From: Roridomyces roridus
Taxonomy: Eukaryota > Basidiomycota > Agaricomycetes > Agaricales > Mycenaceae
Length of the DNA stretch: 64,000 nt
Reading direction: 5' to 3'
NCBI GenBank assembly: GCA_029378245.1
Contig: JARKIF010000057.1
Coordinates: forward strand, 124,001-188,000
The first letter of the stretch is position 1. Each line of letters starts with the position of its first letter. Shown in pieces: positions 1 through 30,534 of this stretch. The position numbers and the translations under genes are program-made. The notes under the pieces were generated by a model, which did no database searches, had not been told where the DNA came from, and was given only the letters and a program-made list of their open reading frames with translations.

Positions 1-531
1 AGGCCAAACTGGGGACCGCCTCAGCAACAACAGAGGCAGTCACAAGGCAATTATGGTGGACAATCTTACGGGGCCGCCAGAGACGATAGGTGCTTCTATT
101 GTCTTGGACCACATTACCAAGAAGACTGCGAGGTTAAACGCAAGCATTTGCTATTGGGAATGATTAGAGTTCAGGATAGGAAGATATTCCAGTACAACGG
201 TCATAGTATTCCGTCAGAACCAAGGAACAAATCCAAAGCCCAAAAGGTCGAGGAGTTCTACATGAGTCGGAATGGGGGGAAGATGCCCCAGGAACCTCTG
301 AAGCAAGCATACATGACAGAAGAGGAGCCGGACTATGATTCGCGTGGGGATGAAATCCTTACCTTACAAGTCGAAGCTCTGCAGTTGCGTCAGATGATCC
401 AGTTGTACGAGATTCGACATGGATCGTTGAAGGATACCGGAGCTGGCGAGGAAGAGCCAGTACCAGAAGCGTCGCAGAACTTGCAAACCAGGGCCGCAGC
501 TGGGCAAGCTAATGGTCAGGGTTTTCGGTAA
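1..531 (+). CDS. gag: Gag, C-terminal part with zinc knuckle
   Basis: The frame is open from base 1 to the TAA at 529-531; the N-terminus lies outside the window. Gag forms the retroelement particle and packages its RNA. A Gln/Gly-rich stretch precedes a zinc knuckle at nt 91-129 (C31, C34, H38, C43). The spacing is CX2CX3HX4C, one residue shorter than the usual CX2CX4HX4C. The tail is charged and has a short amphipathic stretch around codons 120-135. A GGGTTTT heptamer two codons before the stop suggests that some ribosomes shift -1 into the protease frame. Confidence 0.75.
   Translation, partial: RPNWGPPQQQQRQSQGNYGGQSYGAARDDRCFYCLGPHYQEDCEVKRKHLLLGMIRVQDRKIFQYNGHSIPSEPRNKSKAQKVEEFYMSRNGGKMPQEPLKQAYMTEEEPDYDSRGDEILTLQVEALQLRQMIQLYEIRHGSLKDTGAGEEEPVPEASQNLQTRAAAGQANGQGFR
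513..531 (+). promoter_or_regulatory. Candidate -1 ribosomal frameshift site, gag to protease
   Basis: Gag and the protease frame overlap for 19 nt: the -1 frame opens after a TAA at 510-512 and gag ends with TAA at 529-531. Inside the overlap, 519-525 reads G GGT TTT in the gag frame, matching the X XXY YYZ slippery consensus. The first ATG of the downstream frame is only at 654, so a shift explains expression better than internal initiation. A possible stimulatory hairpin lies at 551-572 (GCGT/ACGC and CCC/GGG pairs), farther away than usual. The stop also overlaps GTAAGT (528-533), a possible splice donor, which is the main alternative. Confidence 0.6.
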
Positions 532-1868
532 GTCCGAGGAAGGATCTGCCGCGTGGCCCTCCGGGTAGACGCGACGTTCCCGAGGACGCCCAGAAACCGA
601 AAAAGACGCCGGCCAAGAAGAAGACTGAGAAAATAGAAAAACCTAAAAAGATAGTGATGGATGCAGTTGTGGTGCCTCCTCGGAAGAGAGATCCGAAGCC
701 CACGGTTGAAGAGGTCGAGGATGAAGACGGCCCTCCGCCCACCAGTACTCGAGCAGAAGAGTTGCCCTATCGGGATGTACCACCGGTAGTGGATGCTAAG
801 AGAGAGCCAGCCCTTCCGCGAAAACCGAACCCACAGAAGACTGAGATGCCGAAGGCGACCTCCAATGACACGGAGCGGGCGTACAAGGTAACCTCGGAAG
901 TCGATGATGGAGCAGCGGTCAAAGCATTGAAGAAAAGGATCTTAGATATGGAAATTCCAGTGACAATCCGGCATCTAATGGCAGCCAGCAACCCTCTGCA
1001 GAAAGAAATGAATAAGGTCACGGCCAAACGTCGGCGACCTATCTTCCAAGCCCTCCAAGGCTCTGAGTCGTCCAACTTTGTAGTAAGAGTGGTAGACAGG
1101 GAAACTGGAGAGGTGGTGGTAGAAAGCGAGCTGGACGCCGAGGAATCTCAGAGCGAGACAGGGTCCGAGACCCAGTCCGAGGAGTCATCCGCGGAGGTCC
1201 AGGGAGATCAGGTTCCGGAAGGGGCGGTGCACATTGACGATTTACCATTCGATCAGTATGTATTCGTAACCACGGAAGCAAGCGGGGCTGTACCAGAAGG
1301 ATCCATCGTAATTGAGGATGCTTTTGTACAGTATCACGATAGCTTAGGCTCAGGGAAATCAGGAAAGGATATCTATGTTGGCACGTCTTCCGCAGCATTG
1401 CGAAGTCTGTATCCGTTGATTAATGGCATTGGGACTGTCGAAACACTACTAGATGGTGGTTCGCAGATATGTTCGATAACCGAGGCAGAGGCCATTCATT
1501 TTGGGCTCGCGTGGGATACTTCCGCGACCGTGTTGATGCAAGGATCCACGGGCAAGGTTGAGAGAACGATGGGGCTAGCACGAAATGTAGCTTTCACGTT
1601 CCCAGGTATCACTGTGTTCCTACAGATCCATGTGCTCAGGACAGCGCCCTACAAAGCGCTCCTGGGTAGACCTTTCGAAATCGTTACCAGTGCTGTGATT
1701 CAAAACAAACCGGATGGAACTCAGACAATAACCATGACGGATCCTGTGACACAACGTACAATGACCATTCCTACCAGCGAACGTGGCAAGCAGCGCGTAG
1801 TTGGGAAAGCAGAGAAAGAGCACCCGGTATTATCAGCCGACAGCGAGTCGCCTAAAAGAAATTTTTAA
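513..1868 (+). CDS. Retrotransposon aspartic protease ORF (pro)
   Basis: This frame is open from 513 to the TAA at 1866-1868, about 450 aa if entered by frameshift or 404 aa from the ATG at 654. The N-terminal half is Lys/Pro/Glu-rich and probably disordered. The C-terminal third holds a retropepsin-like region: hydrophobic residues, then LLDGGSQICSI near nt 1447, where DGGS takes the place of D(T/S)G. Further on comes a LLGRPF-type motif near nt 1660, typical of Ty3 proteases. The enzyme would mature Gag and Pol. A separate protease frame between gag and pol is unusual for fungal Ty3 elements. Confidence 0.65.
   Translation, partial: WSGFSVSPRKDLPRGPPGRRDVPEDAQKPKKTPAKKKTEKIEKPKKIVMDAVVVPPRKRDPKPTVEEVEDEDGPPPTSTRAEELPYRDVPPVVDAKREPALPRKPNPQKTEMPKATSNDTERAYKVTSEVDDGAAVKALKKRILDMEIPVTIRHLMAASNPLQKEMNKVTAKRRRPIFQALQGSESSNFVVRVVDRETGEVVVESELDAEESQSETGSETQSEESSAEVQGDQVPEGAVHIDDLPFDQYVFVTTEASGAVPEGSIVIEDAFVQYHDSLGSGKSGKDIYVGTSSAALRSLYPLINGIGTVETLLDGGSQICSITEAEAIHFGLAWDTSATVLMQGSTGKVERTMGLARNVAFTFPGITVFLQIHVLRTAPYKALLGRPFEIVTSAVIQNKPDGTQTITMTDPVTQRTMTIPTSERGKQRVVGKAEKEHPVLSADSESPKRNF
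1856..1868 (+). promoter_or_regulatory. Candidate -1 ribosomal frameshift site, protease to pol
   Basis: The pol frame opens after a TAA at 1853-1855 and the protease frame ends with TAA at 1866-1868, leaving a 13-nt overlap. Within it, 1859-1865 reads A AAT TTT in the protease frame, a canonical X XXY YYZ heptamer directly before the stop. After a seven-base spacer there is a small stem (GTTC 1873-1876 with GAAC 1880-1883). Pol has no ATG at its start; the first usable codon is TTG at 1871, which again favours frameshifting. Confidence 0.62.
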
Positions 1869-4800
1869 GTTTGTTCGAGGAACTCGAGGATGGGGGAGAA
1901 CTCATGACTTCTTGGGATTACGATGAGCGTGGACAACTGATATGTACGGGGTATGCAAAACCCAAGGACAAAGTTGCTACTGAGGAGGATATCACACAAG
2001 CGTATCTATGTGCCTCGAGACAGGTAGTGGACGATGACGAAGCAGCAGCTGAGCTGCTGGATCAGTACCTAGGTCTTAGTAAGACTGAGGAAGGGATGGA
2101 AGTGTTTACCTTCAAAGAAGCAGGCGAGACTGGCGTAGCCCAGAAACGCAACCGTGAGAAGCGTCGGATCAGATGCGGGAAGAATACCCGAAAGATGACG
2201 TTGATACAACTCCGCGGGGAAACTGAGCGATCAGCGCCAAAGTCAATTAGGAAGATGTTTCGCAAGAAAGTGCCTACCATACCCGAGATATTGAGGGATT
2301 GTACAGAGGAGGTAGCTAACTTCCTCGGGAAAAAGTACAAGAAAGTCGCGGACAAGGTCACGCCGATACTGGCCACCTTGCCCGAGAAATATCGGATCGA
2401 GAGGAAGATCACGGGTGACCCCTTGCAGGACATGCCAACTCTAAACCCGAATCCACCTGAATTCGAGGCAGTGGGAAGGTATACTGAGGAGCGCCGTGAT
2501 ATGGTTGATGCAATACATGATGATGGACTCTTAGAAACCGAGGAGCGCAAATTGATGCACCATTTTATGATGCAGCATGAGAAGAGCTTCGCCTGGGAAG
2601 AAAATGAGAGGGGGAGATTGAAACACGAGTTCTTTCCTCCCGTGGAAATTCCGGTTGCAGAACATACCCCGTGGGTGTGTTCGCAGATTCCGATTCCGCC
2701 TGGTCATTATGAAGAATTTTGCAAGAACATCAAGGCGAAGATTGATGCAGGTGTGTACGAGCCTTCGAACTCCTCGTATCGCACTCCGATCTTTGCGGTA
2801 ATCAAGAAAGATGGCAAGTCACTACGGATTGTGCACTCCTTGGAGAGGTTGAACGAAGTTACCATCCAGCATTCCGGAGTCACACCAGGTACAGAGGCCA
2901 TCGCAGAGCAATTTGCAGGACGCGCTTGTGGAGGAGCATTAGATATGTTCGTAGGATATGACAATCGAGACCTCGCAGAAGGTTCGCGGGACTATACAAC
3001 GTTTCAGACTCCCTTTGGGGCCATGAGATTAGTGAAGCTACCCATGGGTTGGACCAATTCGGTTCCCATTTTCCATGATGATGTTACCTATATTCTCAGA
3101 GATGAAGTCCCCCATGTCACCATTCCCTACATTGATGATGTACCTATCCGCGGACCTAAGACTCGATACGAGACTAAGGACGGAGACTATGAGCGCATAG
3201 CCGAAAACAAAGGCATCAGACGATTCGTGTGGGAACACTTTCAAAATTTGAACAGGGTTGTTGCTAGAATGATCTATGCTGGAGGAACGTTTTCGGGAAA
3301 GAAAGCAGTACTTTGCAAAGGCACATTTGAAGTTGTTGGTCATATGTGTACTTATGAGGGCAGGATCGCGGATCCTAAGCGGATTGATGTCATCATGAAG
3401 TGGGGAAAATTGGCAAACTTTACACAAGTCAAGTCATACCTCGGTACAGTTGGCGTCCTCCGGTCCTACATAAAGGACTTTGCGAAAATCCTAGGTCCAA
3501 TAAATGACCTAACGAAGAAGGAAATACCCTTTGAATGGGGTGAAGCCCACGATAAGGCACAAGCAGATGTTCGAGAAGCGCTCAAAGATTGTAAGGCACT
3601 CAAGCCTCTGGATTACGAGCTGGATTCGGACATAGTATTGCAAGTGGACACGTCTTGGAGGGCGGTAGGGTTGATTATCTATCAGGTAGACCCCGAGGAC
3701 CCGACCAAGAGGTGGTACGCGAGGTTCGCGTCAATTACACTAACGGAGAGGGAAGCCAATTACTCACAGCCAAAGCGCGAATTGTTCGGGCTCATGAGGG
3801 CCCTGGATGCAATGTCGTATTGGTTGCTGGGATGTAGGCGGCTGGTAGTTGAGACAGATGCCTTGTACATCCGTGGAATGTTGAAGAATCCTGGAATGGG
3901 ACCAAATGCGACTATTAACCGGTGGATTGAGAAGATTCTCATGTTCCATTTTAAGTTGAAGCACGTACCTGGTGCGACTTTCGCGCCGGATGGTCTGTCA
4001 AGAAGGGATCCGCATCCCGGGGATGAAGTCTTTAAGAATCCAGAGGATGGTTTCGATGACAATGATCCACCTGAGGACCATGAGGAGATTGATCCAAATG
4101 GGCCGCAACCGCTGGAATTCGAGGAATTTAAAGACAAGATAGATACAAGGGGCGGCTATTTACAGACGACTGAGTGCGCGGGGAGCCCCGCGGACTTCGA
4201 GACTGACTGGGCTTGGGCCAGATCTTTGGAGGAGCAAGTCAGGACTTCTGTAAAGAGAGCGTATGAGAAAGAAGGGGAACCTGTACCACAGTTTGTGCAG
4301 GCCGCGGAACCGCTAATTCCAGACTTGGAGTTGAAATGGGATCCGGACAAGCGGGAGCCGTATGACGAGAGTCGGCGCTCTAACTTGGCTAAGATGCAGG
4401 ATAACAGACTGGCCGGTTTAAGGACTTGGCTGGAAAATCCACTGAAAAGGCCGAAGAGTGTTCAGAAGAAAGATTACAGACACTTCGTTCGGTGGGCCTC
4501 ACATTTCTTTTTGAAAGAGGGGAGGATGTATCGAAAAGGAATCGGTACAGCACACCAATTGGTGGTAGATAAAGAGCACAGGATGTACATGATGCGTGCA
4601 GCACACGATAGTCTAGGACATCGAGGATTTTGGGCAACCAAAGAATTGATCAGCCTACGATTCTGGTGGCCGGAGTTGGATAGGGATGTCAGTTGGTATA
4701 TTAAAACGTGCCATAGCTGTCAAGTACGGCAAACGACACTCTTGAAAATCCCGCCTGTCATCACGCACACGCCGAGTCTGTTTCAGCAAGTTCACATTGA

Positions 4801-5739
4801 CGTGATGAAAATGGGAGCAACTTCGAATGGATATTCAATGGTTGTAGACGCCCGCGATTCACTATCGAGTTGGTTGGAAGCACGACCAATTAAGAACGAG
4901 AATGCTGAGACGCTTGGGATGTTCATTCTGGAGGATATTATCTGCAGATGGGGCTGTCCGCGGGTGATCGTAACAGATAATGCGGGCGCGTTCAGAAAGG
5001 CTTTAGCGTGGTTGGAAAAGAAATATGGCATTATTGGGATCAATATATCGCCTTACAACTCGCAAGGTAACGGCAAAATCGAGCAGGGGCACTTCCCGCT
5101 TCGACAGTCGCTAACCAAAGCTACGGGTGGAAACCCGGGGAAGTGGTTCTACTTCTTCCATCAGGTGTTGTGGGCAGACAGGATTACCATTAGGAAAGGC
5201 AAGGGGTGTTCTCCCTTCTTCCTAGTCACCGGAGCGCATCCAATCCTACCTTTGGATTTGGAAGAAGCGACCTGGCTGGTAGAACTGCCTGGCAGAGTTT
5301 TGACCAACTCTGAATTAGTGGGGTTCAGGGCACAGGCCTTGGCCAAGCATCATCAGCATGTAGAAGCCATGAGGTCGCGAGTCACCCACGAGAAAAGGAT
5401 GGCGTTACGGAAGTACGAGAGGTACTTCGAGAACACCATCCAACAGTACGATTTCCAACCAGGAGAGTTGGTGCTGGTCAGACATACCAGTGTAGAAAAG
5501 AGTTTGAATTCAAAAATGGAGAACCGATACCTAGGACCTATGATAGTGGTTCGACGAACCAAAGGAGGAGCGTACTTGGTCGCGGAAATGAACGGCACCC
5601 TGGGTTGTAGCCACAATGCATTGTACCTTGCCGTGGCAGGGGGGTACATTCAAATAAGGTGACACCTTGACAAGGCAGCCATCATGTGCCCACATTGCAA
5701 TGTACCTTTGGCAGTGCACAGCAAAGAAATTAAAATGCA

Positions 5740-5825
5740 GCAAGGGGGAATTGAACCCAAAATGTCCTGCTGTCATCCAGAGAGAGTGGATGGCAGACAC
5801 CTTAACCAACTGAGCTAGAGAAGAG
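5740..5825 (-). promoter_or_regulatory. tRNA-like head (pol III A and B boxes), left arm
   Basis: On the minus strand, TAGCTCAGTTGG (5806-5817) fits box A and GGTTCAATTCC (5747-5757) fits box B. The acceptor ends do not pair and the anticodon region is replaced by a hairpin with a CT-rich loop. This is therefore a tRNA-derived SINE head, not a working tRNA. Confidence 0.55.
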
Positions 5826-5874
5826 TGACAGATGGCCCTCCACATCAAGCCAAACTATGCCCTCAGACTGAGAT

Positions 5875-6065
5875 CCAACAGTGAATTGGCGGTTAGATGC
5901 GGGTTAGGTTAGGTTAGGTTAGGTTTGGTGCACCCCTAAACAAATGACATCCCCCCCGCGGCTTCGTCTGTGAGTGGAAGAACTCGTAATCCACCGTGAA
6001 TGGGCGGTTAGGGGCGATATCTGCTGTGAGTGATGGTTAGGGGCATTATCCAATGTGAATGACAG
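5875..6065 (+). repeat. Degenerate 30-35 bp repeats with a TTAGG-like run
   Basis: Three to four diverged units share GTGAATGGGCGGTTAGGGGC-like sequence (about 5875, 5988, 6023 and 6051). At 5902-5926 there are four GGTTA units followed by GGTTT. They fill the centre of the composite insert between the two arms. Confidence 0.5.
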
Positions 6066-6121
6066 CATCAGATCAGGGCTGGTCAAATAGGGTAGTATTG
6101 GCATCAAATAGAGCAACCAGT

Positions 6122-6210
6122 ATGGTTCTGTAGTGTAGCAGTAAGCGGTCATTCCTAATATAGTAATCCCTACCCTGGAGGTCTGGGGTTCAATTCAGCC
6201 TGCTGGCAGC
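6122..6210 (+). promoter_or_regulatory. tRNA-like head (pol III A and B boxes), right arm
   Basis: A box-A-like stretch with TAGTGTAGCAGTAAG lies near 6131 and box B GGTTCAATTC at 6187-6196. After the T-arm the sequence runs into the same body as the left arm, read in the opposite direction. The head differs from the left one upstream of the B box, as if the two arms had different tRNA parents. Confidence 0.5.
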
Positions 6211-6764
6211 TATTTTGCCCTGCTGTGGCTAGGTGCAATTCATTTAGCAAGGCTGTGACAGGGTACAATGCAATGTGGGCACACTATGGCTGGGTTGTCA
6301 AGCTGTGGCCACAATTAAATGTACCCCCCAGGCATGACAGGGTACATTGCCTATGTGGTACAGCTACACCTCTGAACGGTGCAATGTTCCAAGACAAAAT
6401 TGGAGCGTTTAGGGTTATCCCTTATTTTGCACGACAATCTATTCCGTTACCAGAGAACATCCATAGGGTCATCGACATCTCGAAGGAAACTCTGGAGAAG
6501 CTAGCAAACGACGAGGAATCTGTGGAGCCGAAAACGAAGAAATCTAAGGTGTACCAAGGAAAGGACATTCAATTCAAGGATGTTCGCCTGCGGGTAACTT
6601 CAGAAGACTTTGAAGAGCCAGAGACTGAAGGCGAAGAGCAGTCCGAGGACTCCTCCGCGGAAGATTCGAACGATGATGCAGCAGACAGGATTTGCAAGTC
6701 CAAACGTTTATCGAAATTGGTAGACAAACTACGGACATGAACGGCGAAGCTATAAAAGCGTACT

Positions 6765-7342
6765 CTAAGGCGTACGAACAGGGCGCGCAGTCGCGGTGAA
6801 AGTCAAGGTACCGGACTGGCGAATAGCAAAGAGGGCGTTGAGGCTGTCAGGGTGGCCGCGCTCAATAAGAACCTTGAGGGCGAGGTGCTCGACGTCCGGG
6901 TGGAAGTAAGGGTCGTTTTCGTGTTGCATAAGCCAAGTAAGGATCGCAAAGACCTCGGGAACGTGGGGGAAAAGGAAGGCGGGTGGCACGGAATCAAGGA
7001 GCGCAGGTTCTAGAAAAACTTTGAGTGCCATCCGGGAGTACGGAAAACAAATAGCGCACCCGGAAGTTGGAAGTGAGGAGAGTGACGAAAGCTGTTCCAC
7101 TCGTCCAAGCTCTTGTACTTGCAGTCGGCGTAATAATGGCCTTCGCAAGCCACGCACGCACGACCCCAGGAGAGGAACGAGCAAGTTTTGTTGGCGGCAG
7201 AGCATCGTTGACAGCAGTCGCCGGGTGATGGCTATGATAGGCGGGAATTCAACCGTGAGAAGACAGGTCCGTGAAGCGCACTTACCAGCACCTTGGAGAG
7301 GATAACTGCGGCGAGCAGTTGCTCGCGGGTGAGTCTGCTCAT
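6765..7342 (-). CDS. Antisense cargo gene C: Cys-cluster protein, 157 aa, 3 exons
   Basis: Reconstructed exons are 7342-7286, 7231-7060 and 7009-6765, with introns of 54 and 50 nt and an open frame throughout. Residues 26-56 hold C26, C29, C36, C45, C48, C56, i.e. CX2CX6CX8CX2CX7C. That spacing fits a fungal Zn2Cys6 binuclear cluster, as in Gal4-type DNA-binding domains. The C-terminal 80 residues are probably helical (HPDVEHLALKVLIERG). The third exon's frame was chosen because the donor CCG G|GTGCGC gives a protein-like reading and the alternative does not. It starts 24 bp past the pol stop on the opposite strand. Function is unknown; zinc and DNA binding is inferred from spacing only. Confidence 0.6.
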
Positions 7343-7557
7343 GAGAAAGCATGGACGGACGTCGGGCCTTTTATGGTCCACGCGATAAGTCCATGTGGCG
7401 ATTTTGAAACTTCCGCGGAACGACAAATTCAGGCAGAAAGAGCAGTCAAAATGTTGAATTGGTCTGCTACTTCTATTTTACGAAGACTAGATACGGTTGA
7501 GCGTAAAGGAAGAACATTCTAAGGAGTGGGGATTGTTGGCAGTAACGAAAGTGGGAT

Positions 7558-9142
7558 TTAACATCCTTCGGGCGACTAGAAGGAGTGTCGGCGTGTGATC
7601 GGACAAAAGAAAATGTCAGAACATACAGAAGGGGGTGGCTCGATTTCACCCTTGGCAAGGCGCTCGAACTGAAGCTCGTGCCACTGACGGTCCTCGGCGA
7701 CTTTCAGGTCGGCCTGGAGTCGGTCGATACGACGAAGATGAACGTCGAGACGGATAGCGCTATACTCAAGATCTTTCTTGATCTCGAGGGGAGAGCGGTC
7801 GGAGGACGCCGGGGGAGGGTTCTCAGCGATAAAGGCACGAGCCTTGTCCGCGACGTTGGCAGGCGGATCAACGAAGGCATCTGAGGAACAGAAGACGCCG
7901 TGAGTTTTAACGCTGCAGGAAGAGAATATAAGGACACACCAATAGCAGCCTCGTCATCGGAGATGTTTGCATAGATAGAGCTGGTACGCTGGCGCTTGCG
8001 GGGTGGAAAGTCCTTGAGAGACGGCTCGGGCTTGGTGTACTGAACGACCTTGAGGTACGCAGGAGAGTCGCGGTTCAGAAAGCGAATACGTTCGTAAGGG
8101 AGACGTACCGTCTCAGGGCGTTTTCCCTCGGAGGTGTTCTTGGACTAGAAAAACGGGCAAATCAGATCGTAGGACGTGATCTATGGTGAAGGGGACGCAC
8201 CTTCACGAGGACAGAAACGTTGGAACCAGAGTCAACGATGGTGGGGACCCGGGCGACGGCGCCTTTGTGGAAGTGGAGGCCCGCGAGCTTGGAGGGAGCA
8301 CCAGCAGCACCATCGTCGTCGACGTCCATCTTGAGGAAATGGGCGAATTCGTGAGAGAGGATAAGAACGACTAAAGGAAGAGACGCACCGAGTTAGCGTC
8401 GACAGCGGGAGCTGGGATAATGGACACACCATCCTCGTCGTCTTCTCCATCCTCGACAGTAGGTGCAGAATTGACCTGGGAAAGTGAAGGCGAATATGAG
8501 AAGGAAAAATGGACAGGCAGGAGATTGCGACGGACCTTTTTCTTGGGAGGTTTCCGACCAGTAGTGGCAGCACGCTTGGTTTTGCGATTGTCGGCGTCCT
8601 TCTTGCGAATTTGAGCATCCTTGCGCTGGGCTTGATAATATTGGAGGGCGAGGGCGCATTCCTTCATGGCAGCAGCAGGAGGCTCGAAACCGCACTCCTT
8701 CTTGGCTTCGAGGGCATCATCGCGGACGTGGAAGAGCGCTTCCTTGGCAGGAGTCATCTCGACCAAGTGAAGGGCTTCTTTGAACGCGTAGAGGTGACCC
8801 TGGGAATGAGTTAGCAAAGGCGTCGAGCAATAGAAAATATAGCAGACGCACTCCGAGATTCACTGCCTGAGCAAGTAAGGTCTTGCGGGTAGGGATAAGA
8901 ACGGTCATCGTTTTATCGATGGAACGATAGGCGGCAACGGCTTCAACGAGTTGGGCGCCGGCCTTCATGGCGGCAGAGTCGGGAGAAAGAGGCTCAGGTG
9001 CCATGAGAAGTAGAGAGCGGAATGGGTTGCCTAGGACCAATTGAGTGCCGTTTATATATTGCACGGTGGTGAAATTGGGGAAGTGCGGGTAACGGTCGAA
9101 AAAGGATGAGTCTGTAACGTTGAAATGTTGGTATCCGTTCAT
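7558..9142 (-). CDS. Antisense cargo gene A: hypothetical protein, about 435 aa, 6 exons
   Basis: Exons are 9142-8852, 8799-8389, 8329-8201, 8144-7940, 7880-7627 and 7575-7558, with introns of 51-59 nt, mostly with GTGCGTC or GTGTGTC donors. The joined frame is open and ends in TAA at 7558-7560. I recognise no family. Visible features are an N-terminal MAPEPLSPDSA-type segment that resembles gene B, a helical middle (codons about 98-185) followed by a basic KKKVRR patch, a DSGS motif near the end of exon 3 and an acidic helical C-terminus. The DSGS recalls an aspartic-protease active site, but nothing else supports that. The start could also be the in-frame ATG at 9004; the similarity to B upstream of that ATG favours 9142. 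Confidence 0.6.
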
Positions 9143-9899
9143 GACAGGAATAATATGACAAGTTCGCGGGGCACGCCCGAGGACGGTCGTGTTATTTTTG
9201 TGAGGGGGAGAGAGCCAAGATGGCGCCAAGCTTTTCAAAGATAAAGTTTCAGACTTGCAAATAGACCACCGACAAATCACTATGGCGTTAGACAAAGCAA
9301 TTTGCAAATATGTTACATGCGGGCACCGATCGGCAGAACTATAGTTAGAAGCAGAGTTCGAGGAAACGTGCGCGGGTGAGCAGGTAAGAGTTGGCCAAGG
9401 ATTAGTCGGGTCAGAAATAAGGAATGGTCAATAAGAACCCGTGTGGGGTTCGAGGATGATGAGGGATCAAGAAGTTGTGATCCGGGAAGCGGTCCTAGAA
9501 GCAGTCCGAGAAGTGGTCAAAGCTATGATACAAGGTCGCATGACAAGAGTGTCAGACTACAAACATACTAGGACTAGAGAAGACTCAATGCGCAATACAG
9601 TAGACAACGCTTACTTGAAAGAAAAGACAAAGATATTTGTATTATCTTAAAGAGTGGAAGTTCGTTCGTCACACTATAAAGGCGGGAGTCAAAAGCAATG
9701 ATATTTGAGGCCACGATTGGGCCGACTACTAGATGTACAAAGGGAGAGCACTCTACTACTGCTACTCTAAGTAGATAGAGACGACGTATGTGACGTCGGT
9801 TGTAGTCCGCAGGGTGAAAAACAAATACACAAAAAGCGATTGGCCGTATCGGCTCGCAACAAGATGCCCGCATTCCCAAACCCATCCAGCACAGTCCAC
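9143..9899. other. Spacer between cargo genes A and B
   Basis: These 757 bp lie upstream of gene A and downstream of gene B, both minus strand. No ORF here has a protein-like reading. The part near 9143-9400 would hold the promoter of gene A; I see no clear TATA box or repeat. Confidence 0.4.
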
Positions 9900-12761
9900 C
9901 TAATCCGTCGGTTCAGCAGCCGTGAGATGAGGAGCGGGCGAGGAGTTCGGCGAGCCCATCAGCTCGTCCTCTGGCGCGTGATCCGTCATCGGCGTATCGG
10001 GGGCGTTGAGGGTCGCGATGGCAGGCGTCGACGGAGAAGTCAGACGAGACTCGTCCAAAGCTAGACTCGAATATCAGCCAAACACGGAAAAGAATAAGAA
10101 AGAAAGTTAGACGTACCACCACCCAGAGTACTAAAGCGCGAGATCGGCGTTGGAGGGTGAGATGGATGCGCCGAAGTCGAAGCCACAGGGGCCATTGGAG
10201 GAGCCGTCTCCACGGGTGCCGGGCGCGAGAAATCGGGCGCAGAGTTGAGGCGCAATAGTCCGCTGGTCGACGCTTGGGCAGGGACGTGAGGCAAAGCGAT
10301 CAACTACAACGCATAGAATCAGGGAAGAAAGAATAAAGGAACGTTACGACGTACGCGGGTAGGCTCCATGTGTGCAAAAGCGAACTGGTGACGTTCCTCG
10401 AGGTCCTCCACGAAAGCAGTCGCCGAATCCATGTCGATGTTGTGGAAACGGAAGAGTGAGAGGAGTACGTCGAGGTCGTCACGACCGTTCTGGAACTTCT
10501 TGAAGAGCTCGGCCTCGGGAAGGGACTTGCGGAGCGAGAAGATGTACAACGCCAACTCCTGCAACTGCATCCGATAGAAGGAGCGCTGGTTGAGGAAGAC
10601 GGCGAGCGACGACTCGAGGTTATGGCGTGCGAAAGCCAAACCTTCCAAGCGATGGATCAAGCCTATGAAAAGAAGTTAGGGATAAATAAATAAAAAGTGC
10701 GAAAAGGGAAAAGACGCACTGAAGTTGGACATCTCGATGGCAGGCCGAAGGGACTCGAACATCGCGCTCTGTTCGTATTCGTCAATAGAGTTCGAGCAAG
10801 TCCCGTGGCCGACGCCACAGCCAAGGCACGCGTGTTTCGGTCCCAAAGACCCACAGACGTGGTTGCGCTTGGCGCAGTTCGAGCACGGAGCAGGCGCCTA
10901 GCACAAAACAGGTTGAGCTAGGGCCGCACCAGAAGAGAAAGACAGAGAAACGACGACTCACTTTGAAGTAGTTCTTGCCCGGGATGCGCGAGGCGATGAT
11001 CAAATCCGGATCGAGGGTCGGATCGTCGGGCGAATCCGTGTCTTTGAACAACGATGGGGCGGGGGCAGGAATCGAATCCTGGTCGATTGAATACTGAGGA
11101 TTGCTGAAATAATCGACGACATCCATGGTCTCGGGGATGGGCGTGGCTTTGACGATGAAGTCGTGCGGGATGACGCGAGGAATAACGCCGGGCATTGAAC
11201 GCTCTAAGTTTCAAACGTCAGAACGTCAGAAAAAAAAAAAAAAAAAACAAGAAGAAAAAGAACATACTGGGGCCCGAAGTTTTCGAATGCATCGAGTTGG
11301 CGTACCACTCGTGGGTTTGAAGACCGTCCGGAGGGTTGGTCGGGACCTCGGGCTTGGGGTCGTCAAGGATGTAGCTTTTGTAGCCACCGTCGGGGTTGGC
11401 AGCGTAAGGATGCAGAAACGGACGTTTCTGGTCAGGGGCCTCGGACGGTTCGCTCTTCTGTTTGCGTTTGCACGAGGTTTTCGGAACCTCGACAGGCGGA
11501 AGGTCGGGAGGTGGTGACTCGGGGGGACGAGCAGCCACGGTCGACGGGCGCATCGAACGACGGTTGGAGGGTGCCGGCGACTCGACACGAGTTTTGGGCG
11601 GAAGACCTTTGATGATCAAGGCCTCGTCCTAAAAAACAGTTAGCATAAAAAGAAGAGATGAGAAGATCGAGGGACGCACCTCAGAAGGGACCTCCTCAGA
11701 CTCGACTCCACCCAAAGAAGGACCCGGCGTAACGTCGTTCGAACGACGACGACTCTTGGCCTTGGAGTTCTTGTTGCCCTTCTTCTTGGACGGAGCTTGG
11801 AAGAACGGGGCGGCTGCCGACTTGGGGTGGGTAAAGAGGTTGATGGAAGGAACGGCCTTGTTTTTGGACTTTGTGGACGAATAGCCGAAAGGCGGAGGCG
11901 AAGGCTCCAGTTGGTCCTCGGGCATCTGAAAAGAATTCAAAAAAAACAGCGCAAAGAAAGCGGAGAGGATGGACGTACGCGGTCGTCCTCGTTAAAATAC
12001 AAGTTAGGGGTCGCGAGCCGCGGAGCGGGAGCCTTGGCAGAAGACTTCGCTGGCGTAGGAGTGAGGGCCTTGGCGGAAGATTTCGCTGTCGTGGGAGCGA
12101 GGGCCTTGGCGGCAGACTTCGATGGCGGAGGGACGGGAGCGACATCGGAGCCCTCATCGTCGTCATCGTCCATGGCCATAGCGAAGCGATCGTCCAGCGA
12201 CAACGGCACAGGAGGTGCAGGAGGCGCAGGTGGTGCCGGAGGTGCCGGAATGTCGAACGAAGGAGGAAGGACGGGCTGTAAAAGGCGTCAATAAAACAAG
12301 CGAGGAGACGAAGCGTATTGAGACGCACGCGAGAAGGATCATCGGAAGGAATCATGGGTCGATAGGCAGCTGTGCCTTTCAGGTTCTTGTTGCCAAGACC
12401 GGAGACGTCGTTGAGACGGGTAAGCACGTCAAAGCACTGGGCAAAGAACGCCTCGATCTCGGGGATGACTTCCCCTTGCGCGTGATCGCGATAGCGTTTC
12501 TAAGAAGGAGTTAGCCGTTTCCAAAAAAAAAAAAAAAAAAAAAAGAGAGAAAAGAACAGGACGTACCAAGAACTGAAAATAGTGTTGGGTCTCGCGGACG
12601 AGAACAGACAAAGTAACCGGTTCCAGCGGACGAGTGGTGTCGAAACGATCGGTGAAGAAGACGAAAGCACGGTCACCACCGTCGCGGATGGGTTTCCACG
12701 GGTCCGAGAGGAAGCGAGCCTTGGCCGAGGCAGAGTCGAGAGGTCGAGGCTTCGGAGCCAT
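9900..12761 (-). CDS. Antisense cargo gene B: Zn2Cys6-like cluster protein, about 781 aa, 10 exons
   Basis: Exons are 12761-12567, 12499-12329, 12275-11979, 11925-11680, 11628-11268, 11203-10962, 10897-10720, 10662-10355, 10303-10117 and 10060-9900. The nine introns are 51-67 nt, nearly all with GTRCGT donors, and the joined frame is open to TAG at 9900-9902. Domains: N-terminal region shared in part with gene A; a Pro/Ala segment with three SSAKAL-type repeats (about 174-206); a basic stretch (about 268-284) that could be a nuclear signal; and a cluster C509, C512, C519, C528, C531, C538 (CX2CX6CX8CX2CX6C). A helical region and a Ser/Pro-rich tail follow. Cluster spacing suggests a Zn2Cys6-type DNA-binding protein; regulation of host or element genes is inference. 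The frame is also open upstream of 12761 and the true start may be further out. It is more GC-rich than gag-pol. Confidence 0.68.
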
Positions 12762-13469
12762 AAGTCGGTACGTACTTGGTGGGACCACCACGTAGTCGAG
12801 AATGAGAGGAGGCGTGGTGGAGATACGAGTCGAAGACGAGTAACCAGAAGAGCCCGCCAGGCGAATGCGGGAGGACGACAAGCAGAGTAGAGGAAAAGAA
12901 AACGAGAGGGGCGAAAGTCTTGATGAGTCGACTCTTAAAAAGGGGCTCATGAAAGGAGATTCCTGGGAAAAGATCAGGAATAGACTTGCAATAGAAATGA
13001 CTCGGGACCAGGACCCTGAGTTGAAAAGAAGCCAAGACAACCGGGCAGCCGGTACGGCGCTAAAATTGAATGGCTGGGAAAAACAAGTATAGATAGCACG
13101 AACCTCGAGGACTATGGTCTCGCTGGTTCGTGGGTGGTCTACCAGCACGATACAAGCACGGAACGAATAGAATAACGAAGAAGACGCGTGTCTTCAATAG
13201 TTGGAGCGAAAATCGCGAGAGGGGCGCGTGAGACTCCGGTGAGATAAAAATTAGCGGAAAATCCAGCACAGCCTTTTCAATTAAGGGTGGATCAAAGATC
13301 CGCGGAAGCTACCTCGTGGAGCACGGGAGCTATCGGTGAATGAACGAAGACAATTTGGGCTCAAAATAAAACAATTGAAACAGACGTTCGAGGGGGCTAT
13401 CAGTCCTCGAACCTCTAAATCGATGAATTATGATCGCGCATGTTCACGACCGGGGACGGTCGAGATTTA
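12762..13469. other. Spacer between cargo gene B and the 3' polypurine tract
   Basis: This 0.7-kb stretch should hold the antisense promoter for gene B. The minus frame stays open to 13148 but reads as Ser/Leu/Phe-rich low-complexity sequence. A GAGGGGG run at 13388-13394 resembles a second polypurine-like tract. No gene is supported. Confidence 0.4.
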
Positions 13470-13481
13470 GTGAAGGGGAGA
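13470..13481 (+). promoter_or_regulatory. Polypurine tract
   Basis: GTGAAGGGGAGA lies immediately 5' of the LTR start TGATACG. Such a tract primes plus-strand DNA synthesis in LTR retroelements, and its position fixes the LTR start and the + orientation. Confidence 0.7.
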
Positions 13482-15049
13482 TGATACGACTGCGTATTTC
13501 GCACGCGTGAAATCTGGCTAATTAGCTGTTTTGGTGCGCACACCAATGCCTCTGTCAGGTGATATACAATAAGGGATAGGACCGAGCTCCGTGTCGCTAT
13601 TCGTGTATTAATGAGACAAGTACAAGTCGTCAGTACACTACGCTTGGCTATTCGTTCAAGTGGTCGGTTGTAGTGACTCCAATAGGCGGTTCGCGGGGAC
13701 TACTACTTGTGGAGATACCATACCCAAGGAGATATACCAAGCCCAGGTGTATTCAGAAATGAGCTAGACTAGCTATAGAGCAAAGACGAAGGTTGCGCGG
13801 ACGCGCAGTACTATCATGACAAGGTTCGTGGAGTACCTCGCGGACCGGTATAAGTCTATATATATGTATACAAACAGAGTGGCTCGCGTAGGCGAGTTGG
13901 AGGAAATACTACCATTCGTTCCGGTATTGCAGAGACACCCAGAAAAGAGATGACAAGTGGGCGAGTCGAACTCGCGCAGGCACACTAGTATGATCGAGAA
14001 CTGATCCGAGTACGATCATGATCATGAAACGCGGCGGAGTCGCGGCAGACGATCAGAGCGATGATCGCGTCTGACAGAATATGTCAGGAGTAAGCTCTGG
14101 ATGACGAAGATGGCGGACCGAGGTTATTTATGGACCTGGGTCGAGGGCTGTAGTCATAATGGGAGCTGGCTCAGCAAGAGAGTGTAATGAAACGACGGAA
14201 TCAAATTACCAGGCCAATCGGCTCGAATGCCAAGGCGGCATGACCACCGATCAGACGGGCCAAGCAGCAACATAAGCAACAGGACCACGCGAAGCGGTTC
14301 GAGGGGATGTAATATAGGTGACAGGGCACCTAGGGTTATAGGGAAAGTACGGAAATAGGGATGGCAGGCGCGTAATAGTAGTTATATCATCAGACCAGTA
14401 GGGAGTAGTATATAAGGCCTGTAGATCCCGCCCTTGCAGCATTGCATTGTACGCCTTCTTGCCTAGACATTGGGTCGAAGCTTGATCTGTGGTTATAGTG
14501 CAGTCTTGTGACTTCCGCGGAGATTTGTTGTATCATTTCTCTTAGCTTAGACGCAATATCAAAGGCACCCGAGCTCTGGTTCAACTTGGGTCAGCTATAG
14601 TAACATACTTAAGGGGTAGTGGGTTGCCCTCTGTGCTATAGTTCCTCTTCGTGTTGTATCGAAGTTGTATTGGTGTTTGGATATTGTGTGTTTCGGTCAA
14701 TAAAATATAAAACCTTTTAACATCGTAACCTCGTGTTCGTTGTGAGCAGTCTACAAACCAGTCAAGAGATTCCTCTTAGTTCAAAAGACATTGAACTTGG
14801 TGTGAAACCTCGAGAGCCAACCTACAAGCTTCCGAGAACCAAACCGCGGAGTATCAGTCTTATCTGTATACTTCAGACGACCCCGAACTCAACCGTTAGG
14901 TGTCAGCGTGCTAGTCAAGGAATTGTGTGTGTGTTGTGTGTGTTTTGTGGTTAGTGTGTTGTGGAGTTGTATCGCTTCGCGGTCTACTTCTAGGACATTA
15001 CCTACTCGAGCTATCTACTATACACTAGTGCGCGTGACGCAGCGTATCA
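13482..15049 (+). repeat. 3' LTR of the Ty3/gypsy element
   Basis: The 1,568-bp unit starts TGATACG and ends CGTATCA, a perfect 7-bp terminal inverted repeat with TG...CA ends. It has a TATATAAGG box near 14409, a plausible transcription start downstream of that, and AATAAA at 14699-14704, followed by a T/G-rich region, matching a U3-R-U5 layout. No second copy is in the window because the 5' LTR lies to the left, so the target duplication cannot be checked. Confidence 0.68.
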
Positions 15050-23425: not shown

Positions 23426-23662
23426 TATCAGAATCTGTACACTTTAGTTCTCTCACTGGTACACCGTAATGGTAACGAGTCTTATTCACCTGTACACTTT
23501 AGTTCTACATGTAAATGAGCCTCTATGTAAAGTGGAAAGAACGGCGAGCTCACCTCTCACTGGTACACCGTAATGGTAACGAGTGAGAGGCAAACACGAT
23601 CACGGCTCATGCTATCAACACCGCGCACAGCCACCCAACATGCGCGTAGGCTGAAACCAACA
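23426..23662 (-). repeat. Copia 3' LTR
   Basis: 237 bp; read on the minus strand it starts TGTTGG and ends CTGATA. It differs from the other LTR at one position (CCCAACATG versus CCCGACATG). It contains an internal repeat of ACACCGTAATGGTAACGAGT (two copies, 61-62 bp apart). Confidence 0.85.
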
Positions 23663-23736
23663 CACCCCCTCAGCCTAAGCTGCGGGAAGGCTGCGGAAAA
23701 CACCCCCTCACGCTCGCAAAATTAAAACACCCCCTC
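23663..23736 (-). promoter_or_regulatory. Triplicated polypurine tract
   Basis: GAGGGGGTG (minus strand) occurs at 23663-23671, 23701-23709 and 23728-23736. The first abuts the LTR and the last overlaps the pol stop codon, so only the first is in the position expected for the working primer. Confidence 0.6.
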
Positions 23737-26700
23737 AGCACAAACCCAACTCGACACGGTGACGGATAAAAGCTGGGGTAGGAAGAGCCTTGGTAAGGGT
23801 GTCGGCGGTATTGTCGGCAGAAGGGATGTGGGGGACAAGGACCTTCTTCCTCTCGACGCAGTCGCGGATGTGGTGATAGCGGTTCGCAATGTGCTTGACA
23901 CGCGCATGGAAGGCTTGGTCGTTAGCAAGGATTGCAGCTCCGTTGTTGTCTCCATATATCATGGTAGGAGAATCGACCGTCACCGTGAGTCCCCTCAGTA
24001 GCATCCGCAACCAACAAGCCTCCTTGGCCGCCTCCGAAGCCCCGATGTACTCCGCCTCCGTGGACGACACGGCCACGCATTTCTGTTTGCGAGATGCCCA
24101 CGAGATGACACCCGAACCCAGCGTAAAGGCATAGCCCATCACCGACTTGGTTTTATCCCGGTCATTGGCGAAGTCTGAGTCGCTCCAGCCCTGAAGCTCG
24201 ATATTGTTTGTTCCACCGAGGACGAGCCCCAGTTCACGCGTGCCTTTGAGGTAACGGAGAACTCGAATGGCGGCTCTCCAGTGCTCGAATGTGTAGCAGT
24301 CGAGGAAACCAGACAGGTGACTGACGGCGTGAGAAATATCTGCGCGAGTTCCCATGGCCAGATAACCCATGCTGCATACGAGGGAACGATAAGGGGTAGA
24401 GGCCAGTCGGTCCACGTCAAGCTGAGAGAGGGGAGGGTCGGACGACTGGGGACGACGAAGACGCAAACCGGCTTCCATCGGGGTTGGTGCAGGGTGGGAG
24501 TCCGTCTGGAAGAACTGGGTGATGAGACGGTCAATGAGGGCGGTTTGGGAGAGGGTAATAGTCCGGCGTTCGGGATCGCGCACAACACCGATACCAAGGA
24601 AGAAATGAATGTCTCCGTCCGAAATTTCCCATTTGGACATCAATTTTCCCTTGAACCACTCGTTGGCCTCACGAGAAGAAGCCGCAGAGCACATGTCGTT
24701 GACATGCACAGCAACCAGATTTGTCGCTCCGTCCCGTACCCTGACGTAGACACACCACTCGCAAAGTAGACACTTGAAACCCCATTCCACCAGGTTGTCG
24801 TGCATCTCTTTATTCCACACTCGACCTGCCTGCTTCAGCCCATACAACGCCCTCAGCAATCTCCACACCCACGACTCCTTCCCTTCAACCTCAAAATGGC
24901 GGGGTTGACGCGTGTATTGAACCTCGTCCGAGGGAAGCACGCCATTGAGGAAAGCTGTCTTGATATCAAACTGTTGAATATCCCAGCCACGCGAGGCCGC
25001 AATGTGAAGGATGGCTCTGAAGGACTCAAGACGAGCCGTGGGGGAAGTGGTGACGGTGTAGTCCCTGCCAAAGACCTGGCGATTACCACTAACGCAGTAT
25101 CGAACCTTGTGGCGGTCAACTTCGCCCAAGACATCGCGCTTCCGGGTGTAAACAGGCATGAGGTCAAGAAGGGTCTTGCCAGGAGGGACCTCCGAACGGG
25201 GAACAAGTTCGTACACCCCCTTACGCTGAAGGGCATCAAGCTCCTCGTGAGTACCGGCTGTCCATTGTTCCGCATCTGGCGCTGCCATCGCTTCCTTGTA
25301 ATTGCGCGGGTCGTCCGGGTACTCGACGTTGATGGGATTCTCGGCGAGATACGCATTGAGCTGGGCGAACATGGCAGTCTCCTCTCCATCGTCGTCCTCG
25401 GGAGTATCGGCTATGGTCGCTTCCCACTCCTCGAGGATGACCTGCTCCCCCTCAGGTTCTGGAGTTGTCTGTGCAGCCAGGACAAGACGGTCGGGAGCAC
25501 GACGAACACGTCCAGAGCGACGAGGGCCCTCAGGTGGCCTTTCGGGGGAAGGAGGGGGAGGAGGCACAGCGAATGGAGAGTCTACAGGGTCAGCAGACGT
25601 AGTCAGCGGCACATCCAAGACCGATTGGTCATTGGGCACACCAGACATGGTGGGCAGGGGTTCAGTAGGCCGCGCCGCGATGAGTGGCCGCTGAATGGAA
25701 ACTTTGACCACGTCGCCGGACTCAATGAAGCGAACATCAATGGAGTCAAAGACTTTCCCTGAGGAGCATTGCCAGCAGCGGTAAGCTTTGGCTTGAGGGG
25801 AGTAGCCAATCAGAACACATTCAATGGAACGGTCTAACAGCTTGGGGTTATGACCGCGGACGAGAACGAAAGCCCGACATCCTATCTCCCGGAGGTGAGA
25901 GATGTTCGGTTTGTGCCCCTCGAACGCCTCAAATGGAGTCCATCCGCCCTGTGATTTAGACGGACAGCGAGCGTGCAGATAAGCAGCCGTAACGACGAAC
26001 TCATCCCACAAGAAGAGTGGAGCGTTGCATGCAATGCGCATAGCACGAGCCTTGTTAAGGATGGTGAGGTGGAAACGTTCGACCTTCCCGTTCTGAGCAG
26101 AAGTCTCAGCTGCGGTGTAGCGGATCTTCGTCCCGCGTGCCGCACAAAAATTGGAGAATCTTGTCGATTTCAGCTCGCCGTTGTCAATGTTGTACTTCTT
26201 GACCTTCCGCCCCGTCTGCATCTCAACGTCGAGCTGCCACGCAATGAGAATGTCAAATGCATGTGCCTTGTCCGCCACGGGAATGGAAAAACCACGCGAG
26301 GTCGCGTCGTCAATTATGTCCAACATATAGTAATTTCCACTCCGGGAACGAGTATCAAATGCTCCGCACATGTCCACAAACACCAGATCCAACGCCCCCT
26401 CAGATTTAGGACCCTCCCTCTGCTTTGGTATCGTTGCCGCGACCTGTTTGCCACGGATACAAGCGTCACAAGGGGTAGGAGGGGATGAGGTGTCAAGGAC
26501 CATACCGTCGGCTAGTTGATGTTGGTAAAGGTCGACGACGGCTTGGTGGTGGGCAAGGCCTAAGCAGCGGTGCATCAAGTCAATGGAGACGGCAGCGACG
26601 GGAGAGGTAGCAGGTACAGGCATGGTGCAGTCCAGCTTGTAGAGCCCCCGCGAGTCGAGTACACCAGTGCAGACAGTGGCTCCGGCCGCATCTGTGATCC

Positions 26701-27118
26701 AGGTGCCCTTGGCGTCAAAATGACAAGAGTAGGCGACGTCCACGCAGAGACGGGATACGGAGAGGAGATGGATCGACGAGGTAGGGACATGGAGCGCATG
26801 ACGAATGACCAGATCGGAATTGATGATCGTACCAACGCCCACCGCGTCAATGGAGCTGCCTTGGAAACCGGTCACAGCGCGCGGTGGAATTGGGCGGTAG
26901 GAGACGAAATCCGAGATGTAGGGCGTAATCGAGGTGTTGCATCCCGAGTCCGAATACAGCTCGTACGAATCAGGTGTCGCCCGAGCCGCGTTGACCGTGT
27001 AATTCCGCCAGTCTACCGATGCCTTGGGTTTGTCCTCGACATGGAACACCTCGAATTCGTACATGGCATCGTTCAGGTCATCGGTCCGGAGCGTGCAGAA
27101 TATAAAGTCATTTTTCAT
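23735..27118 (-). CDS. pol: Copia pol: protease, integrase, RT, RNase H, 1,127 aa, RT motif altered
   Basis: One long frame. Protease: ELYSDSG around residues 53-58. Integrase: HHCC site (H183/H190, C217, C220) and catalytic D249, D312, E347. RT: motif A with D718 (QFDIKTAFLNG) but HVND at 805-808 where active enzymes have YVDD, so the first active-site Asp is replaced by Asn. RNase H: SDSDFAND, SSTEAEY and YGDNNGA. The ATG at 27118 lies in a remnant of a foreign TIR, and no zinc knuckle is found between gag and the protease, so the gag-pol junction has been rebuilt. The frame is intact but RT activity is probably lost. Confidence 0.85.
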   Translation of the reverse strand: MKNDFIFCTLRTDDLNDAMYEFEVFHVEDKPKASVDWRNYTVNAARATPDSYELYSDSGCNTSITPYISDFVSYRPIPPRAVTGFQGSSIDAVGVGTIINSDLVIRHALHVPTSSIHLLSVSRLCVDVAYSCHFDAKGTWITDAAGATVCTGVLDSRGLYKLDCTMPVPATSPVAAVSIDLMHRCLGLAHHQAVVDLYQHQLADGMVLDTSSPPTPCDACIRGKQVAATIPKQREGPKSEGALDLVFVDMCGAFDTRSRSGNYYMLDIIDDATSRGFSIPVADKAHAFDILIAWQLDVEMQTGRKVKKYNIDNGELKSTRFSNFCAARGTKIRYTAAETSAQNGKVERFHLTILNKARAMRIACNAPLFLWDEFVVTAAYLHARCPSKSQGGWTPFEAFEGHKPNISHLREIGCRAFVLVRGHNPKLLDRSIECVLIGYSPQAKAYRCWQCSSGKVFDSIDVRFIESGDVVKVSIQRPLIAARPTEPLPTMSGVPNDQSVLDVPLTTSADPVDSPFAVPPPPPSPERPPEGPRRSGRVRRAPDRLVLAAQTTPEPEGEQVILEEWEATIADTPEDDDGEETAMFAQLNAYLAENPINVEYPDDPRNYKEAMAAPDAEQWTAGTHEELDALQRKGVYELVPRSEVPPGKTLLDLMPVYTRKRDVLGEVDRHKVRYCVSGNRQVFGRDYTVTTSPTARLESFRAILHIAASRGWDIQQFDIKTAFLNGVLPSDEVQYTRQPRHFEVEGKESWVWRLLRALYGLKQAGRVWNKEMHDNLVEWGFKCLLCEWCVYVRVRDGATNLVAVHVNDMCSAASSREANEWFKGKLMSKWEISDGDIHFFLGIGVVRDPERRTITLSQTALIDRLITQFFQTDSHPAPTPMEAGLRLRRPQSSDPPLSQLDVDRLASTPYRSLVCSMGYLAMGTRADISHAVSHLSGFLDCYTFEHWRAAIRVLRYLKGTRELGLVLGGTNNIELQGWSDSDFANDRDKTKSVMGYAFTLGSGVISWASRKQKCVAVSSTEAEYIGASEAAKEACWLRMLLRGLTVTVDSPTMIYGDNNGAAILANDQAFHARVKHIANRYHHIRDCVERKKVLVPHIPSADNTADTLTKALPTPAFIRHRVELGLC

Positions 27119-27147
27119 TGAAAAATATCTGGCTCAAGTGGTGGGCT
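27102..27147 (+). repeat. 46-bp inverted remnant of the TIR element at the gag-pol junction
   Basis: The sequence matches the right end of the element at 29655-29700 (and 28350-28394) in reverse orientation, nearly perfectly. It contributes both the gag stop codon (27134-27136) and the first ATG of the pol frame (27118). It probably marks an earlier insertion, or a deletion/inversion that also removed the gag zinc knuckle. Confidence 0.6.
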
Positions 27148-27441
27148 TCTTGGGGAAGGCAGGATGATGAGCCGCAAACGCCGTCACTTGGAGTGACGCT
27201 CTGGGCAGCGCCGCTTTCGTCGCAAGCCGGTGCTCGATGTACTTGGGAGAGAGATCTGGGGCAACCATCAAGGAGTCGACGAAGCTTGTGTACGGGGCGA
27301 GCGCGTGGAGAAGGAGAACGGTGTGTATCCCGTCAATGGTAGGGGGACCGCCCGCAAAGACAGCTTTGACACTGTCCCTGATAGCCTCACTCGTCTTCGC
27401 CCATGACTTAGGGTCGTCCGAGAACTGGATGGCGAGGGTCT

Positions 27442-30522: not shown

Positions 30523-30534
30523 ATGCCCATAACC
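30523..30534 (-). promoter_or_regulatory. Primer-binding site, half-tRNA-iMet type
   Basis: Directly after the 5' LTR the minus strand reads GGTTATGGGCAT. GGTTATGGGC is complementary to the anticodon loop side of initiator tRNA-Met (CAU), the internal-fragment priming known from Drosophila copia. Confidence 0.6.

Follow-up and report, generated by a model that had tools for sequence, protein, structure and literature searches.

A family of Ty3-type elements in Roridomyces roridus with up to four intron-bearing antisense genes, likely zinc-cluster regulators serving the element

We analysed a 64,000-nucleotide stretch (the window), C455:124001-188000 of the 90.8-Mb assembly of Roridomyces roridus (Agaricales, Mycenaceae). 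Most of a complete Ty3-type long terminal repeat (LTR) element of 18.1 kb (C455:120941-139049) lies inside it, and between the pol frame and the 3′ LTR this element carries a cargo of spliced genes that read opposite to gag-pol. On balance we think it probable that the element represents an 18-kb Ty3-type family with an antisense cluster of up to four intron-bearing genes, likely nuclear zinc-cluster regulators that serve the element.

The 5′ LTR (C455:120941-122508) lies directly left of the window and is identical to the 3′ LTR at 1567 of 1568 aligned sites. Both LTRs have TG...CA ends and GCGC flanks the element at both outer ends as a short target duplication, giving the paired LTRs of a Ty3/gypsy retrotransposon. 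The LTR starts TGATA and is preceded by GGGGAGA, and downstream of the 5′ LTR stand TC and then TGGAGCCCACCGCGAGGG. Within the pol frame the integrase follows RNase H, which is the Ty3 order (reverse transcriptase (RT) at 316-496 with E 0.0015, short of the cut-off; RNase H at 590-695; H2C2 at 904-960). The gag has its own CX2CX4HX4C knuckle, and Pfam hits in the gag/protease region were DUF4100 (E 2e-10) and a sub-threshold aspartyl protease (E 0.0014). A first-pass annotation, made from the sequence of the window, had set the antisense genes between the end of pol at 6740 and a polypurine tract and 3′ LTR at 13470-15049. That layout stands, but the LTR proper starts at 13482 and position 13470 takes in 12 bases of polypurine tract. 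The parts of the element within the window are as follows.

1 to 1868, plus strand: end of gag and protease part (open frames 1-531 and 513-1868; the element starts left of the window)
1856 to 5595, plus strand: pol frame with RT, RNase H and integrase, interrupted by an insertion at 5596 (from frames, Pfam and copy alignment)
5596 to 6372, no strand assigned: insertion of 777 bp resembling a miniature inverted-repeat transposable element (MITE), not here in other copies (copy alignment)
6373 to 6740, plus strand: remaining pol region past the insertion (frames, copy alignment)
6765 to 7342, minus strand: gene A, a fusion of paralogues A2 and A1; 3 exons (7342-7286, 7231-7060, 7009-6765)
7558 to 9004, minus strand: gene B, 369 amino acids (aa); 7 exons (9004-8852, 8799-8536, 8475-8389, 8329-8201, 8144-7940, 7880-7627, 7575-7558)
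9900 to 12761, minus strand: gene C, 781 aa; 10 exons (12761-12567, 12499-12329, 12275-11979, 11925-11680, 11628-11268, 11203-10962, 10897-10720, 10662-10355, 10303-10117, 10060-9900)
12762 to 13469, minus strand: region upstream of gene C, putative antisense promoter (from position only)
13470 to 13481, plus strand: polypurine tract adjoining the 3′ LTR (sequence)
13482 to 15049, plus strand: 3′ LTR, 1568 bp (LTR pair alignment)

In the window copy, genes A, B and C on the minus strand contain 2, 6 and 9 introns, 17 in total. The first-pass annotation had described three minus-strand genes with 2, 5 and 9 introns; the strand, the open spliced frames and the counts of 2 and 9 are correct, but gene B has six introns and the total is 17 rather than 16. 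One of the gene B introns has an AAG acceptor and is also removed in the NCBI model P0005, and the translation of gene A is NCBI protein P0002 letter for letter. Exon 2 of gene A holds a domain of six cysteines and a tryptophan (Cys6-Trp, hereafter A-type) and exon 7 of gene C holds a six-cysteine cluster, while basic stretches such as PRKRQR and KRKQK can be seen in the sequences of B and C. The number of three genes applies to the window copy; the fullest copies have four (A1, A2, B and C). Other copies have approximately 890 bp extra at 6940-6952, absent from the window copy between 13-bp repeats, and this piece holds the separate gene A1. Because it is missing between those repeats, the window gene A is a deletion fusion of A2 and A1 across the 13-bp repeat. 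A1 and A2 are paralogues, 25% identical and with two introns each. The full cargo therefore comprises four genes in the order C, B, A2, A1, reading away from the 3′ LTR, and it is found at full or nearly full length in the copies C467, C90, C211 and C464.

A gene finder gave the minus strand of the cargo a total score of 240 and gave 0 to the cargo plus strand, the gag-pol minus strand, both LTR strands and 100/100 dinucleotide shuffles. Since it was trained on B, C and pol this score test is partly circular, and codon-position substitution among copies is the independent test. The gene finder recovered A1 exactly and A2 only as a single exon from an internal start, and it did not recover the A-type domains of a second element family (family II, below).

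The cargo codes for protein under purifying selection, because changes between copies concentrate at third codon positions in the spliced frame only. Comparing gene C of the window with that of C90, changes at codon positions 1, 2 and 3 numbered 41/767, 25/770 and 111/770, with 87/477 in the introns; testing for an effect of codon position gave p = 2.3e-17 with the spliced frame and p = 0.25 when introns are ignored and the frame is left unspliced. The ratio of nonsynonymous to synonymous substitution rates (dN/dS) was 0.05-0.19 for gene B (5 pairs) and 0.05-0.23 for gene C (8 pairs), and no internal stop occurs in gene C in any of the 12 copies that cover at least 700 of its 782 codons. For A1, A2 and pol only pairs with more than 100 codons and at least 8 changes were listed. 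Among these, A2 gave 0.06-0.29 (12 pairs without C82 and C224) and 0.19-0.38 against C82, and A1 gave 0.03-0.07 (the 4 listed pairs outside C26, C224 and C82); pol for comparison gave 0.03-0.07 against C90, C467 and C13, and 0.37 on 14 changes against C464. Left out of these ranges were A1 of C26, which has two stops and is out of register near its end (0.35-0.65), and A2 of C224, which is deleted and misaligned (0.55-0.83). A1 of C211 has one stop. Indels in gene C that are not a multiple of three number one in C467, five in C90, five in C211 and none in the other 9 of the 12 long copies, and may be real or made by the alignment.

Retrotransposition is expected to strip introns, and copies made from a spliced antisense mRNA would be intron-less. 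Across copies, the introns of B and C are retained in 172/172 instances with both exon flanks present, 170 of them with GT..AG ends and two, in C224 and C82, with an altered acceptor. Therefore all copies seem to have descended via the sense genomic RNA, as antisense placement predicts, and the cargo seems to be transmitted as unspliced sense RNA. It had been proposed at first pass that antisense placement lets the introns survive, and these counts bear that out.

Cargo sequence of at least 2 kb is found at no fewer than 14 loci (C455, C467, C90, C211, C135, two in C464, C257, C68, C473, C224, C82, C438 and C26). The reading in the first-pass annotation also required further copies with the same order of gag-pol, antisense genes and LTR, a 5′ LTR of the same sequence upstream of gag, and no LTR boundary of another element between 6740 and 13469. 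The 14 loci supply the first and the LTR pair of the window element the second, and no foreign LTR boundary was seen within that interval in the aligned copies. A full 3-kb pol stretch is matched at ≥97% by at least 10 loci, a lower bound as 40 of 55 candidates were scored, and nine of those ten carry cargo. Presence in most full-pol copies and conservation as protein, judged by dN/dS, are both features of the antisense coding sequences termed aORF-3R. Among the nine, C473 has only the first part of gene B, whilst A2 and most of B are missing from C224 (L027) and C82 (L028), which have the same altered acceptor in intron 7 of gene C. At the tenth, C13, a deletion that runs from within A1 to a point upstream of gene C, with short matching sequence at the join, has removed the cargo; the pol frame of C13 has a stop. 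LTR pairs agree at 1567/1567 sites in C467 and 1561/1568 in C90, and at 98.5% in C464 and 98.2% in C211, with the 3′ LTR incomplete in both of the latter comparisons. The near-identical pairs of C455, C467 and C90 mark recent insertions. Separately, the copies at C464:149500-159000 (L023) and C257:499800-509200 (L024) have common internal deletion edges (window 3650 to 7786 and 12510 to 13058), for which we offer the reading of a segmental duplication or of a deleted form that moved.

Outside the MITE-like insertion, windows of gag-pol and LTR are approximately 94-100% alike between copies. Over 11.1-12.9 kb the similarity of gene C drops to 79-91% in C90, C211, C68, C224, C82, C438 and the second C464 copy, such that the first half of the gene (window 11101-12900) is far more diverged than flanking DNA, introns included. 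Between the window and C90 the synonymous divergence was 0.123 in pol, 0.10 in B, 0.122 in exons 6-10 of C and 0.337 in exons 1-5 of C. Since the introns share the excess and dN/dS is 0.16 in each half of the gene, the best reading of it is that old lineages of the element exchanged sequence, rather than that the protein changed faster.

A-type relatives hold the same backward position in two sister Ty3 families. Family II, on C458, has an LTR pair (1129518-1130940 and 1144739-1146161) that is 100% alike, and its pol lies on the minus strand with an integrase 68% identical to that of the window element; three A-type domain copies and further genes lie on the plus strand. A second copy on C201 is 99.3% alike over 7.75 kb. 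The family II LTR starts TGATA after GGGGGAGA, comparable to the TGATA after GGGGAGA of the window element (family I). Family III (C469, C116 and C257, the last at a contig end) has an integrase 82% identical to that of family II. It has A-type genes and a gene in common with family II (81% over 43 aa), which lie opposite to pol on every contig that includes pol. In a genome-wide search, A-type domains of family II match those of family III at E 5e-9, and domains of family III match those of family I at E 4.5e-4 to 0.0012. Moreover, family III has a likely relative of gene C at C469:2248026-2248572, with 23% identity over 163 aa and the same cysteine spacing as C (E 0.008 among 19 proteins; E-values from protein comparisons among the family genes come from very small sets such as this one). 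Sub-threshold Pfam matches were zf-C2HC5 (E 0.014) in this gene C-like protein, whilst one gene of family II gave both DUF6319 (E 0.0043) and UBA2_C (E 0.041). BLASTP gave no match when two small genes from families II and III were compared. Inside a family II locus a predicted 7-exon open reading frame (ORF; L038 1143-4009) resembles a fungal transposase. A more distant Ty3 family on C112 (L034, C112:3979600-3989599, at 2805-8246), with an integrase 66% identical to that of family II and a pol 56% identical to that of the window element, also has predicted multi-exon antisense genes. These have no significant homology to A, B or C and we did not count the family as a further case.

Turning to the proteins, the six cysteines and one tryptophan are invariant in 8/8 A-type domains from the three families. 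The pattern CX2CX6CX8CX2CX6-8C fits 10/10 A- and C-type clusters from the three families, all of which also fall within the Zn2Cys6 spacing CX2CX6CX5-12CX2CX6-8C. The likeness to fungal Zn(2)-Cys(6) proteins (PF00172) thus lies in the spacing of both types of cluster, whereas the A-type domain differs in its invariant tryptophan between the third and fourth cysteines. A common origin of the A and C clusters was not supported by hhalign (probability 2.7%, E 0.017). Neither single ORFs nor spliced proteins of the cargo gave anything above the Pfam cut-off. A profile of the A-type domain compared with solved structures returned only scavenger receptor chains (E 1.7 and 2.1), which we took as chance. 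Protein searches with the cargo proteins returned R. roridus proteins only (1, 2 and 4 matches), in a search that required shared words of five residues and may miss diverged relatives. Given the cysteine clusters, the basic stretches and the analogy with the HBZ gene of human T-cell leukaemia virus type 1 (HTLV-1) and with plant antisense ORFs, we infer that the cargo proteins may be nuclear, DNA-directed zinc-cluster regulators of the element.

The cycle that we propose would run as follows. The genomic RNA would be of sense polarity, the introns of the antisense genes would escape recognition in it, and reverse transcription would carry the cargo over with the introns in place. The opposite strand would supply the cargo mRNAs, which would start either at a promoter that lies upstream of gene C and close to the 3′ LTR or at a separate promoter for each gene, and would then be spliced. 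The proteins (A1 and A2 with their Zn2Cys6-like domain of six cysteines, C with a cluster spaced in the same way, B and C with their basic stretches) would enter the nucleus and bind element DNA or chromatin, tuning LTR transcription or opposing host silencing. Such action would be comparable to that of HBZ and to the suspected role of the plant antisense ORFs. More tentative, and in our view a little less likely to be right than wrong, is a wider hypothesis in which a mushroom Ty3 clade evolved an opposite-strand accessory module like that of complex retroviruses. Its several spliced genes, among them a family of zinc-cluster regulators that undergoes duplication and occurs in three or more element families, would govern transcription of the element or overcome silencing by the host, and their antisense position would be what allows introns to coexist with retrotransposition.

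Several observations weigh against regulators that serve the element. Constraint on A1 is less clear in the 10 pairs with C224 or C82, where dN/dS was 0.26-0.91 on 8-15 changes. The cargo-less C13 has LTRs alike at 1567/1568 sites and so an insertion may not always require the cargo, although the C13 deletion could postdate its insertion. For gene C, the connection of family I with family III is weak and at most suggestive, as genome searches with gene C or with the family III gene C-like gene did not retrieve each other. Gene B has no relative outside family I, all its genome search matches lying in family I copies, and against family II and III proteins it gave nothing significant (best E 0.24-0.30). 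PF00172 (Zn_clus) matches 4/8 A-type domains with a best E of 0.013, below significance and short of the Pfam gathering score, and no Pfam match at E <0.1, to Zn_clus or otherwise, was obtained for A1, A2, B or C at full length. AlphaFold2 models of P0001 and P0005 had a mean predicted local distance difference test score of 40 and 45, too poor for use. Nuclear entry and DNA binding are inferred from composition and analogy alone.

The cargo likely has a role in the element's own spread, because constraint acts across lineages of copies. Such selection is compatible with any role in the element's cycle, and the proteins might instead be accessory factors of another kind, whose cysteine clusters bind nucleic acid in the particle, or which steer packaging, nuclear import or integration and have no part in regulating transcription or silencing. 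A short, cysteine-rich A-type domain that reaches Zn_clus only below significance would fit general nucleic acid binding. However, expression from the other strand, apart from gag-pol, suits a regulator better than a part of the particle, and gag already has a knuckle of its own; we regard this explanation as the strongest of the rivals and still fairly unlikely. The first-pass annotation had left it between genes that serve the element and captured host genes. Their introns are of ordinary fungal type and antisense capture would account for the entry of introns, so host genes riding along or benefiting the host deserve consideration. We consider this improbable. No free-standing copy of the cargo was found in the R. 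roridus genome, where protein-search matches lie in or beside these elements (the one weak exception, on C268 with E 0.058, lies beside and opposite to another pol). Moreover, relatives recur in two diverged Ty3 families, and selection has been maintained across copies with near-identical LTRs. Service to the element is therefore favoured on sequence grounds over host capture, given the lack of a host copy in the genome, the purifying selection and the A-type relatives in the two other Ty3 families.

Two further explanations appear remote. An independent origin of the cargo, as a DNA transposon or a piece of a virus that had integrated in reverse orientation ahead of the spread of the families, would agree with the finding of no relatives outside R. 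roridus among the protein-search matches, in a search that can miss diverged ones. Yet Pfam found no transposase or viral domain in the cargo, and gene content and order vary among families I, II and III, such that a single block would need much rearrangement; we think this very unlikely. Least likely of all, if by a small step, is that the antisense transcript is itself active, controlling the element through double-stranded RNA, and that the frames are incidental. Retroelement antisense transcripts can act in this way, according to a statement in PMC7264820. As a sole role this is contradicted by changes that follow the codon positions of the spliced frame only, by the low dN/dS of B and C (0.05-0.23) and by the 0/12 long gene C copies with an internal stop. 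Regulators serving the element thus remain our preferred explanation of the cargo.

Among the other features of the window, the 777-bp MITE-like element, which the first-pass annotation did not include, has 89-nt inverted repeats and TGAACGG on both sides (window 5596-6372; L019 4706-5467). A piece 98% alike to it lies at a different gag-pol position in the C211 copy, and the MITE-like element is therefore mobile within the family. Other repeats lie at 23426-30772 (238 bp at 99.6%, 507 bp at 94% and 304 bp at 92%).

Intron-rich genes in LTR elements are a puzzle, to which the R. roridus family shows a clean solution in antisense storage. Because it combines several genes with copies of both recent and older date, a copy that has lost its cargo, and sister families for comparison, it offers a natural test of the purpose of antisense ORFs, a matter left open in the plant literature. 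Should the proteins turn out to act as regulators or as suppressors of silencing, LTR elements of fungi would match complex retroviruses in having accessory genes. A literature search, mostly of papers available without subscription, returned no report of an LTR element with a cluster of several intron-bearing antisense genes. The first-pass annotation had thought a three-gene antisense cargo with about 16 introns new for a fungal Ty3 element. This holds for the multi-gene, many-intron cluster, but single antisense genes are already known in plant elements and in the fungal Boty (brtn, as described in PMC7264820).

Lastly, the cargo can be set beside known systems. LTR elements of bdelloid rotifers with a variable ORF3 likewise have extra genes common to different element families, although the ORF3s described in PMC5408684 are enzymatic or env-like. 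HBZ of HTLV-1 is a spliced antisense retroelement gene and a regulator (described as such in PMC2386809), but it is a single gene for a basic leucine zipper (bZIP) protein, and Pfam found no bZIP domain in the cargo proteins. Boty/BcGypsy1 of Botrytis cinerea and Sclerotinia sclerotiorum is a fungal LTR element with an antisense gene, brtn, between pol and the 3′ LTR (noted for BcGypsy1 in PMC8365987, and see PMC7264820); by these descriptions, on which the comparison is based, it differs in having one gene and an ascomycete host. Similar in arrangement are the aORF-3R of plant Ty3 elements, namely Grande gene23, RIRE2 and Retand TRP28. As in those elements, the R. roridus coding sequence is antisense to gag-pol between pol and the 3′ LTR; further likenesses, from the accounts in PMC7264820 and PMC11963269, are presence in most copies, conservation as protein and a suspected nuclear or DNA-binding role. 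PMC7264820 lists antisense ORFs for plant elements and Boty with function unknown, and PMC11963269 reports them in Retand clusters, TRP28 being the most frequent; the word 'intron' is absent from the main texts of both. In contrast to the plant elements, the R. roridus element has up to four antisense genes, 17 introns in the window copy, a Cys6-Trp domain and a fungal host.

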